This document shows positions 30,570 to 36,463 of a DNA stretch of 64,000 nucleotides, in pieces. How positions within the stretch are numbered: position 1 is the first letter of the stretch; the number at the start of each line of letters is the position of its first letter. The notes under the pieces were generated by a model. The model did no database searches and was not told where the DNA came from. It worked only from the letters and a program-made list of their open reading frames with translations. The DNA comes from Kiritimatiellia bacterium (GTDB taxonomy: Bacteria; Verrucomicrobiota; Kiritimatiellia; UBA8416; JADHWI01), in assembly GCA_016783565.1 (NCBI GenBank), contig JADHWI010000005.1:1-64000 (forward strand), read 5' to 3'. Both the position numbers and the translations under genes were made by a program.

Positions 30570-31211
30570 CTACCCACCCTTGGCAATCCAGGCGCGGACG
30601 AATTCACATACTGCGAAGAATTCATCTTGCATGACAATGCCGACATCCAATCCGACTCCGGCCATCAATCCACATATCGTGGCTCGGAAATACACTGCAT
30701 CTGTCACGCACACGATATAATACAGTGTGTAGAAAGGGATCAGGAGGCATAGAATGCCTTGAAACACAGAGTCTTCAAATGCTTTTAGAATGATAAGCAA
30801 GTGTAGGGCGATGCCAATCCAAATTGCATACTGTTTGAGCATCTCGAGATATACATTAGGCAGCACACCCCCAAAACGCAGGTATGCCATGAGGCTTCCC
30901 AGTACGCCGAAGAGAACCCAGCCATAGAGGTGATGGCGCACTTTGGCACGACGCGGTGCCCGCGGTGCATGTTTTCCTCCCGGCCAGAGATCTGTCGCTC
31001 GAGAACCATCCTCGTTAGGTTCTTCTGCCTCTTGCGTTTCAAAAGTTTTTGTGGATATCCCTACCTGTCGTTTCTGTTTTGTGCTGCTGTCGACAATGGG
31101 GCGGGTGAGTGCGTCGCCGCATTCTGGACACGTTAACGCACTTTCGTCCACAAACTCAGAAACGGTCATGACGTGTGAACATTTTTCGCATGTTAGCTGA
31201 ATGTCGGCCAT
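30570..31211 (-). CDS. Zinc-ribbon membrane protein of unknown function
   Basis: A 213-residue protein. The N-terminus has a clear zinc ribbon CEKC-x19-CPEC (residues 8-11 and 28-31). It is followed by a charged, proline-rich linker (about 36-90) and about four hydrophobic segments (around 95-115, 125-145, 148-170, 175-195). I do not recognise a named family; zinc-ribbon plus membrane helices of this kind are frequent in PVC bacteria. It probably stands alone; the next gene in the same direction starts 95 bp upstream of it. Confidence 0.65.
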   Translation of the reverse strand: MADIQLTCEKCSHVMTVSEFVDESALTCPECGDALTRPIVDSSTKQKRQVGISTKTFETQEAEEPNEDGSRATDLWPGGKHAPRAPRRAKVRHHLYGWVLFGVLGSLMAYLRFGGVLPNVYLEMLKQYAIWIGIALHLLIILKAFEDSVFQGILCLLIPFYTLYYIVCVTDAVYFRATICGLMAGVGLDVGIVMQDEFFAVCEFVRAWIAKGG

Positions 31212-31306: not shown

Positions 31307-32668
31307 TTAGAGTTGACGAAGTTCACGTTCAACGTCCGCAATTTCGGCTTCAATCCTTCTTCGTGAAGAGGTGGTGCGGGCTCCATTTTGAGCTGTGCGG
31401 GGATGTGCATTTCTCCAGGCTTTGTACTGTTCGCTGGCAGCGTCATAGGCCGCTTTCAATCGGATGTCTTCGCCTTTCATATTGCGTAGCTCGTTGGCGA
31501 AGTTCATTCTTTTGGCTCCAGTGGCAGCGTTCATGCTTTCAGTGAGTTCTTTTACTCTTTCGCCAAATGCAAGGTATTCCTTTCGGGCTTTTCGGTAGGT
31601 GGCCGTGTGTGGATTGCTGCCGTGAGAACCGTTGCCGGCAGCCTGTTCCTCCGGTTGCGCATGAAGTGCTGCAAGCAGTTTGGCGCGTCGAATACGCAGC
31701 TTACGTTCATCAATTGATAGGGTGCTAAGGCTTCCTCGTTGCTCGTCAAGTGCTGAGGTGCGTATCATTACGATGGTTCCATTTCCACCCAGGATTCTGC
31801 CAATGGAGACGCTTTCTCCGGATTGTGTTCTGTTATGGTCGTGGATCGTGAGCAGTGTTCCTGCCGACAAGTCCATGAAATGGTTGCCATCCTGAGTATA
31901 AGCGGGTGCAGAATCTGACGTGACGACGCCCCATGCGTTTTCCTGTTCGGGTTGAGCCGCCGGTTCAGTGGTGGGTTGGCTTTTCTGCATCTGGGGCAGT
32001 TCAATCACAGGCTTAGTGGCGTGAACCGGTTTATGAATGGATTGCGGTCGGGAGTGGGTCATCGGCGTGGTTGTCACCGTACTGATTGTTGACGGTTGAG
32101 TCGTGGTGCGCCCGGGGCGAAGAATATTTTTCAATTCCTCCGGCACTAAATGTGCCTGATGTCGGTCGAGGATGGCTTTTGTGATCGCTTTCAGTGAGTC
32201 TGTTTTCCCCATTTTTCGTAAGTCTGCCGCCGTGGCAATATAACCCTCCCAGCTTCGAATGCGGTGGCCATTGTGCGATTTCAGAGTGGTACTGAGGGGG
32301 GCTTGGACCAGGAGCCACTCCACCTTCTCAGGTATTGTGGACGGAGAAAATCCATATGTGTCGACATCCATCAATTCTTCGGAAAATTGGATGGCGCGTG
32401 CCAGGTCTGATCGATGCGTGTGACAGCGGATTGAAACGTATAACCTTTGTTTGTTTAAGGGCGGATAAGCCTTCGACCATCGTCGACACCGATCAAGATG
32501 GCCGAGAGCGGCGCCTGCCTGTCCGCGGGCCAATAGCTTCTCTGCTGTTTGGATTTCGCGGGACATTAATGCCGGCCTTGCGAATGCGGTGGCAAGCAGC
32601 ACCAGTATTGTTCCCAAAAGGGATAGTACAATGCCCTTTGTTACGATGACTCCCCAGTTCTTGTTCAT
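31307..32668 (-). CDS. Membrane-anchored protein with helical, SH3-like and coiled-coil parts (protease operon)
   Basis: A 453-residue protein of unknown function, third gene of the protease operon and translationally coupled to the pseudoprotease gene (ATGA). Visible parts: signal-anchor (about 8-29), helical repeat-like segment (about 38-130) and a Thr/Pro/Gln-rich linker (about 195-250). A small beta-rich domain (about 253-315, including NAWGVVTSDSAPAYTQDG and VMIRTSAL) has an SH3b-like pattern. A basic C-terminal coiled coil (about 322-453) follows. Predicted location is the periplasm, anchored in the inner membrane. The composition suggests a scaffold or adaptor for its protease partners, which is inference. 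Confidence 0.65.
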   Translation of the reverse strand: MNKNWGVIVTKGIVLSLLGTILVLLATAFARPALMSREIQTAEKLLARGQAGAALGHLDRCRRWSKAYPPLNKQRLYVSIRCHTHRSDLARAIQFSEELMDVDTYGFSPSTIPEKVEWLLVQAPLSTTLKSHNGHRIRSWEGYIATAADLRKMGKTDSLKAITKAILDRHQAHLVPEELKNILRPGRTTTQPSTISTVTTTPMTHSRPQSIHKPVHATKPVIELPQMQKSQPTTEPAAQPEQENAWGVVTSDSAPAYTQDGNHFMDLSAGTLLTIHDHNRTQSGESVSIGRILGGNGTIVMIRTSALDEQRGSLSTLSIDERKLRIRRAKLLAALHAQPEEQAAGNGSHGSNPHTATYRKARKEYLAFGERVKELTESMNAATGAKRMNFANELRNMKGEDIRLKAAYDAASEQYKAWRNAHPRTAQNGARTTSSRRRIEAEIADVERELRQL

Positions 32669-34161
32669 TTGATTGAATTCCCGTTATTGCCTTTCCAATA
32701 TAATGCCGGAATCTGGTATGTCTTTGCCAGCATTCTGTTTGCTTCTGCAATGCGCTCTTTTTCGATCACGATATCAACCCCCCATTTTCCTAACGTCACT
32801 CTATGAATGTGTTGATCTCGTTCTCTTATTTCAAAAAGGTCATCCATGTTGTCAATGGGGGTTCCGTTTGCATGTGTGACTTGCATGTTCTGTATCTGCT
32901 GATAGCCTACGTTGATCGGGTGGGGTAGCACCTGCGTCAGGAGTACGATTCGCTCTCCCTTTCTGTCGGGATGCATGCGTCTTGTCAGGTACTGATGCAC
33001 AAGTGAGGAGTCCAGACGTCTTTGCCACGAGGAGCCGTAGGCGTGGATATAACGCCCTGTCATTTCACGTAGCACCAAGCCCCCTTCCACCAGGTAGGGT
33101 GCCTTGTTCCCCGGTGTATTTGCCGGAATCAGCATACGCTTCTCAGAAGGTCGCTGAAGCGTGATTTCAATATTCTTTTCGGTGCGGTCTCGCATAATCG
33201 TGACCGCGATGGTATCTCCAGGGTGTCGTTGCCCCCTGATGAGATACGGGAACATCATACGTCCGAATGTTTTATCTTTGTAGAAACCCAGATTATCGAC
33301 AGCCTGCCCGTCCCATGAGAGAATGACATCATTTGGGGCGAGCACATTGTCGGCTCCGGACCCGGGGATGCATGAGACAACCAGTACTCCGCCAGGTTGA
33401 TTTTGCACACCTAGCCATTGTCTCTTGGATGGGTCGACGAGTTCTTTCCAGATAAAACCTGCTGAAGCGAATCCTTCATATGGTAGTTTTGTAACGTCAT
33501 CTAAAAAGCGCTTAAGCACTGCGGTAGGAAGTATGGTTGCTGTGCGTGTGGATGAGGCATAGCTGACGACCAACCCCGCAAGTTTTCCGTTTTGCAGAAC
33601 GGGAGCACCGTTACCGTTGATGTTCTGGTCTGCCAGCACATCAAATACGCGTGATGGAAAGGGTGCGGAGGGGAGCACTTCTACGGAGGTTCGTAGAAAT
33701 GTGGCTTTACTGGTTTGGAGCTGTCGTAAATCGTCGAGCTGTGTAATCGTCAGGTTAGAGTCGAGACTCATGTTTGTCGCAAGCGTAAAGGGGGCCAGCG
33801 GTTCAGGTAGTGTCTGGGTGTCGATTTCCAGAAGCGCTAGATTTGCCTGGAAGTCAGAGGCGATGACCCGTGCGGGAATCTGTTCTGCCCTGCGGGGTTG
33901 CATTAATTCAACGAGACTGTGATTGCGGATAAGGCCTTCCGTTGTCAGGACAAGATTGGATGTTACGGCGATGCCGTAGCCACGTTCTTCTGAGGGTTTC
34001 CTTTTTTGCCATGGAACGCGGGCGTTAAATTCCTGGCGGGTGCAAAGGACTCTAACAAGGGCTGACGGGGGGATGGAATCCTTGATGCTGGAATGATCGG
34101 CAGCAATGCCGGGGAGGAGAGTGGAGAGCGTGATCCATGAGATAAGAGTGTTACGCATCAT
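32665..34161 (-). CDS. Deg/HtrA-like pseudoprotease with PDZ-like domains (catalytic triad lost)
   Basis: A 498-residue secreted paralogue of the neighbouring protease (signal peptide about 1-21). Alignment by eye places the catalytic His at Gly76 (VLTTEGLI instead of LTNAHVV), the Asp at Asn107 (FQANLALLE instead of HDCDLAILE) and the Ser at Asn184 (NGNGAPVL instead of GNSGGPVL). All three catalytic residues are replaced while the fold motifs remain. A PDZ-like domain (GGVLVVSCIPGSGADNVLAPNDVI) and a C-terminal region shared with the active protease (LPHPINVGY, matching LPHPVNAYS) follow. Probably a regulatory or substrate-binding partner. The ATGA overlaps on both sides and GGAGGTG before its start favour co-expression. 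Confidence 0.8.
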   Translation of the reverse strand: MMRNTLISWITLSTLLPGIAADHSSIKDSIPPSALVRVLCTRQEFNARVPWQKRKPSEERGYGIAVTSNLVLTTEGLIRNHSLVELMQPRRAEQIPARVIASDFQANLALLEIDTQTLPEPLAPFTLATNMSLDSNLTITQLDDLRQLQTSKATFLRTSVEVLPSAPFPSRVFDVLADQNINGNGAPVLQNGKLAGLVVSYASSTRTATILPTAVLKRFLDDVTKLPYEGFASAGFIWKELVDPSKRQWLGVQNQPGGVLVVSCIPGSGADNVLAPNDVILSWDGQAVDNLGFYKDKTFGRMMFPYLIRGQRHPGDTIAVTIMRDRTEKNIEITLQRPSEKRMLIPANTPGNKAPYLVEGGLVLREMTGRYIHAYGSSWQRRLDSSLVHQYLTRRMHPDRKGERIVLLTQVLPHPINVGYQQIQNMQVTHANGTPIDNMDDLFEIRERDQHIHRVTLGKWGVDIVIEKERIAEANRMLAKTYQIPALYWKGNNGNSIK

Positions 34162-35669
34162 GGTTGCACCTCCCCGAGATATGCATCAGCGGGGATGCCG
34201 TAGGCGTCGAGAATCGCTTTATGGGATGTGTCAGACAGATTTTTCCGCAGGATCAGATTTTCTTTCATCCCGGCAAACTCAAGATTGATAAACCCATTGT
34301 CAGAAGATTGCCATGCGGTGCGCACGTCCTCAAGGCGGCGAATACGTTTTCCGTTCAGGTGGGTCAAAACGCCATTCATGAATCCCCCGGAGTAAGCATT
34401 CACCGGGTGAGGCAAGCGTCTGATCAGAACGACGAATTCATCAAAATCTTTGTGAAACCCATCGATTTTGGCATGTGTTGCGAAGTAAATCAATTGGCGT
34501 ACGTTCGAAGAAGAACTTCCCTCTACCTGTTGCAGGTAGCGATGGGTGAGCGGAGCAAACACAAGGCCACCTCGCACCAGATAGCGGGGGCGTTTGTCGT
34601 AAGTATTTCGGAATAGAAATGGGTCGTGATGATTGATCAAGGGCACGTCAACACTCAGTCGTTCGTTATTGTGCCAGACTTCCATATTGATGGTTTCGCC
34701 CCATTGGCGTCGTTCTGTTAATTCTGCAAAAAGAACACGCGTGCCATTGAAGGCAATCGTTCCGTCGTTGCCGACGGTATGACCATCGACCGTTAACACG
34801 ACGTCCCCATTTTTCACAAAACCTGCTGCCGCACCATAGGGATCGACCATGGTGACGGCGACGCCGCCTTTGCTTACAGGAATATTCAGATGTTTGCGCA
34901 GGGCAGGATTTCTTGCTGACAGAAAAGAAATGCCCAGTTCCGGGTATCCGTGGTATTCGCCATCGGCAATGTCGTCGAGAAAGTGATTCAGAACGGGGAG
35001 TGGGATAGCGTAACCAATGTTTTCGGCCCAGGCCAGCCCCTGAAAGGCTAATCCGACAACACGTTTTCCAAATAAAACTGGCCCACCGCTATTTCCCGGG
35101 TTGATGGCGGCATCCACCTGCAGCACGAGATGGTGGTCGATTCCGCTGTGTGCATAGCGGCTGAAGTCAATCCGAGACACTACGCCTCGGGTTACGGACT
35201 GGCGATCTCCGCCCATGGGATAGCCCAGGACGGTCACTTCATCATTTAGATCGGGTAGTTTTTTTGCCATCGCTAGAGGATGTGTCCCCTCATAGAAGGC
35301 AGTATTGGTGACTTCAAGAATAGCGAGGTCGCAATCGTGCGCGACAAATTTTACCCGCGCCCGGTAGCGTTGGGGGGCATCTTCTTTCTGGACTTCGATG
35401 AAGCGCGCGTCGGAAACAACATGGGCATTTGTGAGAATACGCTTGTTGGCAATCATGAACCCCGTGCCCGTGCCACTCGCGGGTGGATGTGTCTGCCAAG
35501 GCATCGTGTAATCCGGGCGTTGATAAGTCGCATAGATCTTGACTACTGCTGATCGCAGGCGTTTGTCTATAGTGGCGCCCTTAATCGTCGCCAATGAGGG
35601 AGACAGAACAAGCAGCGCCATGAACAAAAGTGTGCGATTTCGAATTGCCTTGCATCTCATGGTCGGCAT
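34158..35669 (-). CDS. Deg/HtrA-type serine protease with PDZ domain
   Basis: A 503-residue periplasmic trypsin-like protease with signal peptide (about 10-32). The triad is intact: His83 in LTNAHVV, Asp114 in HDCDLAIL and Ser194 in PGNSGGPVL. A PDZ domain (about 240-320, with PYGAAAGFVKNGDVVLTVDG) and a long C-terminal extension of about 170 residues follow. The extension is shared with the pseudoprotease but not typical of DegP or DegS; it recalls plant-type Deg proteases with a degenerate second PDZ. It is the first gene of a three-gene operon and overlaps the next by ATGA. Role probably in envelope protein quality control or a specific processing event. Confidence 0.88.
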   Translation of the reverse strand: MPTMRCKAIRNRTLLFMALLVLSPSLATIKGATIDKRLRSAVVKIYATYQRPDYTMPWQTHPPASGTGTGFMIANKRILTNAHVVSDARFIEVQKEDAPQRYRARVKFVAHDCDLAILEVTNTAFYEGTHPLAMAKKLPDLNDEVTVLGYPMGGDRQSVTRGVVSRIDFSRYAHSGIDHHLVLQVDAAINPGNSGGPVLFGKRVVGLAFQGLAWAENIGYAIPLPVLNHFLDDIADGEYHGYPELGISFLSARNPALRKHLNIPVSKGGVAVTMVDPYGAAAGFVKNGDVVLTVDGHTVGNDGTIAFNGTRVLFAELTERRQWGETINMEVWHNNERLSVDVPLINHHDPFLFRNTYDKRPRYLVRGGLVFAPLTHRYLQQVEGSSSSNVRQLIYFATHAKIDGFHKDFDEFVVLIRRLPHPVNAYSGGFMNGVLTHLNGKRIRRLEDVRTAWQSSDNGFINLEFAGMKENLILRKNLSDTSHKAILDAYGIPADAYLGEVQP

Positions 35670-35850: not shown

Positions 35851-36396
35851 CTAAAAAGAAAATTTAAGCCAACCGACAATGTCAATGTCGCTGCCATCAA
35901 ACTCGCTCAATTCATCAAATGATTCGAACGGATAGGCACCCATTACCTCTAATTCCATCCTGCCTAGTGGTATTGCGAGTCCAAGAAGAAATTGTCCGTA
36001 GACGTCTGTCCATTCGCCATCGTCAGTATCTTTGTCTATCATGTATGAGGCCAGTGCGCCTATACCACCCCGCCAGATTTCGTCTTTGAAGATAAGGTTG
36101 ATCTGCGGCGTGAGGACATAGTCGAACTCACTGGTAACTGAATTGGTCCCGCTGGGATCAAAGGATGCATCAAGGGCGATTTGCCAGTATGCTGCGCCTT
36201 CATGATATTCATAAGCGATGGCATACGAGTAGTCTCCGTCTCCAAATGGAAGTTCGCCATAGGTGGAATGTTCCTGGTGGTGGCGTGTGCCGAAAGAGAG
36301 AACATGAGAAGACAATTCTGCCTGCGCTTCAACGTTCACGAGAAATGCTGCCAGAACAGCAACCAGACCAACTGAGTAGAAACGTGTATTTTTCAT
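35851..36396 (-). CDS. Small outer-membrane beta-barrel-like protein
   Basis: About 181 residues. It has a signal peptide (about 1-26, ending AQA), then short alternating strands rich in Tyr, Gly and acidic residues (GTRHHQEHSTYGEL, YSYAIAYEYHEGAAYW) and a terminal Phe (GWLKFSF), features of a small outer-membrane barrel of about eight strands. I recognise no named family. The start could also be the ATG at 36405; neither has a clear ribosome binding site. It lies upstream of the protease operon on the same strand, separated from it by a 181-bp gap that contains only a long-looped inverted repeat (35809-35850). Confidence 0.65.
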   Translation of the reverse strand: MKNTRFYSVGLVAVLAAFLVNVEAQAELSSHVLSFGTRHHQEHSTYGELPFGDGDYSYAIAYEYHEGAAYWQIALDASFDPSGTNSVTSEFDYVLTPQINLIFKDEIWRGGIGALASYMIDKDTDDGEWTDVYGQFLLGLAIPLGRMELEVMGAYPFESFDELSEFDGSDIDIVGWLKFSF

Positions 36397-36463
36397 GCTA
36401 CGCATCGTACCAGACTTTCATCTGAACGCAAGTCGTAGTGGCTATTTTTCGCTTTGAATTATT

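Follow-up and report, generated by a model that had tools for sequence, protein, structure and literature searches.

So far, dead copies of HtrA-type proteases have been described either singly, as with MamO, or as one half of a fused protein, as with Deg7. In magnetotactic bacteria, the HtrA protease MamE and its dead HtrA paralogue MamO are encoded in the same gene cluster, and MamO activates MamE non-catalytically (PMC4794232). Plant Deg7 carries an active and an inactive protease domain together with four PDZ domains in one polypeptide of ~1000 amino acids (aa), and the inactive domain is involved in trimerization (PMC3473262). The plant proteases Deg2 and Deg9 combine Trypsin_2, PDZ_2 and PDZ_3 domains, and the solved proteins (PDB 4fln, 5il9, 5ilb) are active enzymes. 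In Leptospira, LIC20143 and LIC20144 form an operon; a catalytic triad has been reported for LIC20143, and LIC20144 has been called a PDZ-only protein without a protease domain (PMC7709667). Here, we analyzed a stretch of 64,000 nucleotides from a Kiritimatiellia bacterium (assembly GCA_016783565.1, contig JADHWI010000005.1, positions 1 to 64,000; "the window"), in which an intact copy (gene 1) and a dead copy (gene 2) of a Deg2/Deg9-type protease are adjacent genes with the same full-length architecture as the plant enzymes. We propose that they encode a protease and its non-catalytic partner. The two open reading frames (ORFs) and their features, in window coordinates, are as follows.

34158..35669, minus strand: gene 1, predicted Deg2/Deg9-type (S1C) serine protease with intact triad H83/D114/S194, 503 aa, Trypsin_2, PDZ_2 and PDZ_3 (Pfam)
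35421..35423, minus strand: codon of catalytic His83, gene 1 (alignment; coordinates derived from the ORF position)
35328..35330, minus strand: codon of catalytic Asp114, gene 1 (alignment)
35088..35090, minus strand: codon of catalytic Ser194, gene 1 (alignment)
34638..34943, minus strand: PDZ_2 of gene 1, residues 243-344 (Pfam)
34185..34607, minus strand: PDZ_3 (PF17815) of gene 1 (Pfam)
34158..34161, minus strand: 4-bp overlap of genes 1 and 2 (ORF coordinates)
32665..34161, minus strand: gene 2, Deg2/Deg9-type pseudoprotease, 498 aa, G76/N107/N184 at the triad positions (Pfam, phmmer, alignment, fold model)
33934..33936, minus strand: codon of Gly76, gene 2, aligned with the catalytic His (alignment)
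33841..33843, minus strand: codon of Asn107, gene 2, aligned with the catalytic Asp (alignment)
33610..33612, minus strand: codon of Asn184, gene 2, aligned with the catalytic Ser (alignment)
33157..33408, minus strand: PDZ_2 of gene 2, residues 252-335 (Pfam)
32704..33126, minus strand: PDZ_3 of gene 2 (Pfam)

All three Pfam domains of gene 1 scored above their gathering cut-offs. H83 lies in the motif TNAHVV, D114 in HDCDLAIL and S194 in NPGNSGGP; the His-Asp-Ser triad and the GNSGG loop expected of Deg2/Deg9 proteases are both present. The closest solved structures are plant Deg2 and Deg9, with full-length matches to 4fln (1.5e-78) and 5il9, and gene 1 is predicted to encode an active protease of this type. 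DegP, DegQ and DegS belong to the same superfamily and share the triad and a PDZ domain with it, but they lack PDZ_3, and both genes scored far below the curated DegP/DegS cut-off (NCBIfam TIGR02037: 114 bits for gene 1 and 36.5 bits for gene 2, versus 416). Judged by these scores, neither protein is a DegP or a DegS. An initial annotation of this locus had pointed to a C-terminal extension shared by the two proteins. The extension is indeed foreign to DegP and DegS, but it is not novel: the Pfam assignment, the nearest PDB matches and the overlay on Deg2/Deg9 identify it as the PDZ_3 domain of this known subtype. Within the window's genome, PDZ_3 is confined to genes 1 and 2.

Gene 2 contains PDZ_3 (7.7e-27) and PDZ_2 above cut-off and a sub-threshold trace of Trypsin_2. 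Our alignment gave the same residues at the triad positions of both proteins as the initial annotation, and the oxyanion motif of gene 2 is lost as well. Over its full length, gene 2 matches plant Deg9 (5il9) in phmmer with 6e-41. Its AlphaFold2 model (mean predicted local distance difference test score, pLDDT, 88.5; predicted template modelling score, pTM, 0.82) overlays full-length Deg2/Deg9 with a template modelling score (TM-score) of 0.80-0.84 by query length and 0.86-0.89 by target length, far above the 0.47-0.49 obtained with DegP. According to this model, gene 2 retains the Deg2/Deg9 fold and both PDZ domains.

We then counted triad residues in 90 upstream and 89 downstream copies from related tandems; these rows are related and do not represent independent events. 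His-Asp-Ser was present in 87 of the 90 upstream copies, the three exceptions belonging to additional spirochaetal tandems whose copies are both degenerate, and in all 33 copies without a partner. In contrast, none of the 89 downstream copies had it. Among the 87 downstream copies with letters at all three positions, 71 had no canonical residue, 14 had one and 2 had two. The old Asp position is usually Asn (54) or Gly (26), whereas the sites of the former His and Ser show free variation among lineages. Since G76/N107/N184 replace the triad in the window and no orthologue is intact, gene 2 encodes a pseudoprotease and not a protease; the full-length Deg9 match, the Deg2/Deg9 overlay and the fixation of the loss in 89 orthologues show that its resemblance to these enzymes is not due to chance.

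We found the active-then-dead tandem about 89 times, in Spirochaetota and in Kiritimatiellia and further classes of Verrucomicrobiota. Gene 2 had matches in 75 of the 195 genomes sampled from the window's phylum, including 29 of the 31 genomes of its order, and in 24 of 149 Spirochaetota genomes, mostly as tandems. A scan of named genomes found the same tandem in metagenome-assembled genomes (MAGs) of Kiritimatiellia, 'Lentisphaerae' and Verrucomicrobia and in one of Leptospiraceae, although some of the MAG titles are plainly misnamed. At the 60 loci that were read, the second copy directly adjoins the active one on the same strand in nearly every case. In the tandems of both phyla the active gene always comes first and the genes often overlap by 1-4 bp or nearly so, and the gene 2 frame is open in nearly all relatives. 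Dead copies without a partner were found only at contig ends. The fixed loss of the triad and the conservation of the two genes as a unit support the dedicated protease/pseudoprotease pair that the initial annotation had suggested; a gene 2 orthologue with an intact triad, which would have refuted it, was not among the 89.

The tandem of Leptospira interrogans corresponds to LIC20143/LIC20144, as judged from the annotation and the gene order beside the adenine phosphoribosyltransferase gene. It consists of an S1C protease with His-Asp-Ser followed by a degenerate paralogue with S/N/F at the triad positions; in our alignment LIC20144 is thus a degenerate protease, in contrast to its published description as PDZ-only. 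The pair differs from Deg7, which belongs to another Deg clade, in consisting of two separate genes with two PDZ-type domains each. Nor is it homologous, as a pair, to MamE/MamO, whose origins are independent and whose architecture differs, with a TauE domain and a metal site in MamO. The score against the MamE family was 77.6 bits versus a cut-off of 800, and no magnetosome genes were recognised among the ORFs of the window. With a known Deg2/Deg9 architecture, Leptospira members named in print and MamE/MamO as a precedent, the locus can hardly be called an undescribed system, as had been suggested, although our partial literature search found no description of this pair as such.

In a maximum-likelihood tree of 80 rows, the dead copies formed one group (Shimodaira-Hasegawa-like approximate likelihood ratio test, SH-aLRT, 100) opposite all active copies, with mirrored subgroups. 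Forcing the window's class to be a separate duplication cost 152 log-likelihood units (approximately unbiased (AU) test, p 1e-62). The single clade and the AU test rule out that second copies died repeatedly and independently. A FastTree tree of 213 rows likewise placed 89 of 89 dead copies in one clade (support 0.992). Besides the active partners, the smallest clade that holds them all includes just two unpaired rows, of which one lies at a contig end. This clade is poorly supported (0.378), which makes the exact border between paired and single active copies unsure. Long-branch attraction among the fast-evolving dead copies is possible, but the mirrored subgroup order is hard to explain in this way. 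Distances within gene 1 and gene 2 were correlated (Mantel r 0.86, a value reached in 0 of 5000 permutations). Since the dead copies form one clade that mirrors the active clade, a single ancient duplication was inherited as a pair.

Gene 2 is under purifying selection. The ratio of nonsynonymous to synonymous substitution rates (dN/dS) between close relatives was 0.07-0.23, usually higher than in gene 1 and, in both halves of the gene, far below 1. Mean pairwise identity of the protease domain was 49.8% in gene 1 versus 24.5% in gene 2, while the values were similar for PDZ_2 (34.3 and 31.1%) and PDZ_3 (31.1 and 29.8%). Constraint in gene 2 is shifted away from the protease domain. The fall in protease-domain conservation, together with the comparable PDZ conservation and the low dN/dS, indicates that gene 2 abandoned catalysis but retained its scaffold and PDZ functions.

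We propose that the active gene 1 and the co-inherited dead gene 2 descend from a Deg2/Deg9-type envelope protease gene that was duplicated in tandem long ago. The two proteins would be made together, exported and work together; the 4-bp overlap of their genes likely causes translational coupling, and their signal-peptide-like N-termini suggest export. Protein 1 would cut the substrate, and protein 2 would be its non-catalytic subunit, adaptor or regulator, with PDZ domains that may bind substrates or peptides, or with a role in shaping the protein 1 oligomer, or both. The two may form mixed oligomers, or protein 2 may have an adaptor or regulatory role that requires no stable complex. Because the two genes have stayed next to each other across two phyla or more, the dead one very probably serves its twin in a genuine, non-enzymatic function. 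A protease with a co-inherited non-catalytic partner is probably the correct description, and a protease plus a non-catalytic subunit is the most economical model, with MamO and the inactive protease domain of Deg7 as precedents; physical contact between the two proteins and the direction of regulation we infer.

Several observations weigh against this proposal. Co-inheritance by itself gives rise to both adjacency and mirrored trees, so that neither is proof of contact, and MamO acts on MamE without a detected interaction. In one spirochaete (L236), an active gene of the paired type has no detectable dead neighbour. A few Spirochaetota pairs are doubly degenerate, which shows that in this phylum a dead copy need not have an active neighbour to be retained: L232, L238 and L239 are extra Deg2/Deg9-type tandems that lost both triads (EGS/PGR, DAA/PGP and HGR/-DA, respectively) and are still adjacent. 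Joint loss of both proteases was seen in only one assembly, which is 90% complete (L243, genome G210 of the same order); here gene 3 and the barrel gene upstream of the pair remain side by side.

These observations bear on the strongest alternative, in which gene 2 encodes a free-standing PDZ chaperone or peptide binder uncoupled from gene 1, with an adjacency that is just operonic. In gene 2, the PDZ domains are constrained rather than the former active site, and most of the near-invariant positions (D278, D289, G292, Y294, D296, G300, R324 and Y420) fall in PDZ_2 or PDZ_3, as this alternative would predict; it would also accommodate the persistence of doubly dead pairs. However, even the doubly dead pairs retain both genes, and the strict order and adjacency across two phyla, the lack of orphan dead copies outside contig ends and the joint loss in L243 are difficult to reconcile with uncoupled functions. 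We consider this alternative unlikely.

The initial annotation favoured another model, in which all three genes of the operon encode one obligatory complex with the gene 3 product as its membrane anchor. The relevant features are the following.

32665..32668, minus strand: 4-bp overlap of genes 2 and 3 (ORF coordinates)
31307..32668, minus strand: gene 3, predicted membrane-anchored protein, 453 aa, no Pfam family (Pfam, AlphaFold2 model, distribution)
31736..31936, minus strand: predicted SH3-like beta-barrel of gene 3, residues 245-311 (AlphaFold2 model)

The 4-bp overlaps are as described at both junctions, and the AlphaFold2 model of gene 3 (pLDDT 80) is consistent with a membrane-anchored protein with an SH3-like part: a long membrane-type helix at the N-terminus is followed by helical repeats up to about residue 183, a disordered linker, a seven-stranded barrel and C-terminal helices, the arrangement of these parts being unsure because the pTM is 0.44. 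A fold search of this model against the PDB gave only generic helical matches and nothing below E 0.03. In the order, 30 of 31 genomes have gene 3; it directly follows gene 2 and overlaps it by 4 bp in the window and in several relatives. Across the class, however, it occurs in 37 of 146 genomes, and its operonic linkage to the pair is limited to this order and the neighbouring family f12, while most pairs in other Verrucomicrobiota and in Spirochaetota lack it. In several Kiritimatiellia genomes it lies apart from the pair; in two of these (L253 and L258) it precedes ABC (ATP-binding cassette)-exporter genes, which were named by eye from their similarity to genes at L092. In many genomes of the order, the genes after gene 3 encode a secreted protein, an ABC ATPase and a PF16949 permease; the exporter genes of the window's genome lie on a different contig. 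Since gene 3 is found away from the pair and survives the loss of both proteases (L243), it is accessory; its distribution rules it out as a core member, and the three-gene complex is very unlikely. Of the proposed trio, genes 1 and 2 are thus conserved together, and the role of gene 3 as their anchor is not supported. Within our proposal, gene 3 would have been recruited to the operon in this lineage and would encode an accessory protein of the envelope, perhaps an exporter-linked one.

The old scaffold of gene 2 might also have acquired a new chemistry. Metal binding, for instance, would have a precedent in MamO, and the Asn or Gly that replaces the old Asp in 80 of the 89 rows could be a hint of it. 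Nevertheless, no shared replacement active site is visible, because the former His and Ser positions vary freely, and the protease part showed no conserved His/Cys/Asp cluster, although no dedicated search for metal sites was made; we regard this possibility as even more remote than the three-gene complex. Finally, despite the loss of the triad and the oxyanion motif, a decaying pseudogene is ruled out by the nearly always open frames, the conservation from a single ancient origin and the dN/dS well below 1 in both halves.

A further gene lies upstream of the three.

35851..36405, minus strand: upstream gene, 184-aa secreted protein without Pfam match, probably a small outer-membrane beta-barrel (sequence)

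In many relatives of the order this gene directly precedes the pair on the same strand (the family was found at 11 loci), and its product is a candidate substrate or partner of the pair. Downstream of gene 3, positions 30570-31211 (minus strand) encode a zinc-ribbon and membrane protein conserved at seven of the loci read, with a CoaB-like gene coming next at several of them. Outside the order, no conserved neighbours were found at the loci read except the pair itself. The window's genome also encodes another, DegP-like Deg protein (G000:C56:54471-55931; L294/L003) with Glu in place of the catalytic Asp. The resulting His-Glu-Ser is common to 8 of the 16 other Kiritimatiellia homologues read (L295, L297, L298 and L300-L304), and the rest have Asp.

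If our proposal of a protease with a non-catalytic partner is true, this active/dead pair, co-inherited from a single origin over two phyla, would be a natural series for studying pseudoprotease control of HtrA enzymes. The chances are about even that Verrucomicrobiota and Spirochaetota, including Leptospira, have in common an obligate heteromeric envelope protease of ancient origin, with the dead twin as a structural or substrate-selecting subunit. Leptospira is the genus that causes leptospirosis, and the presence of the pair there gives a testable role to an uncharacterised gene adjoining an HtrA protease that has been discussed as a possible virulence factor.
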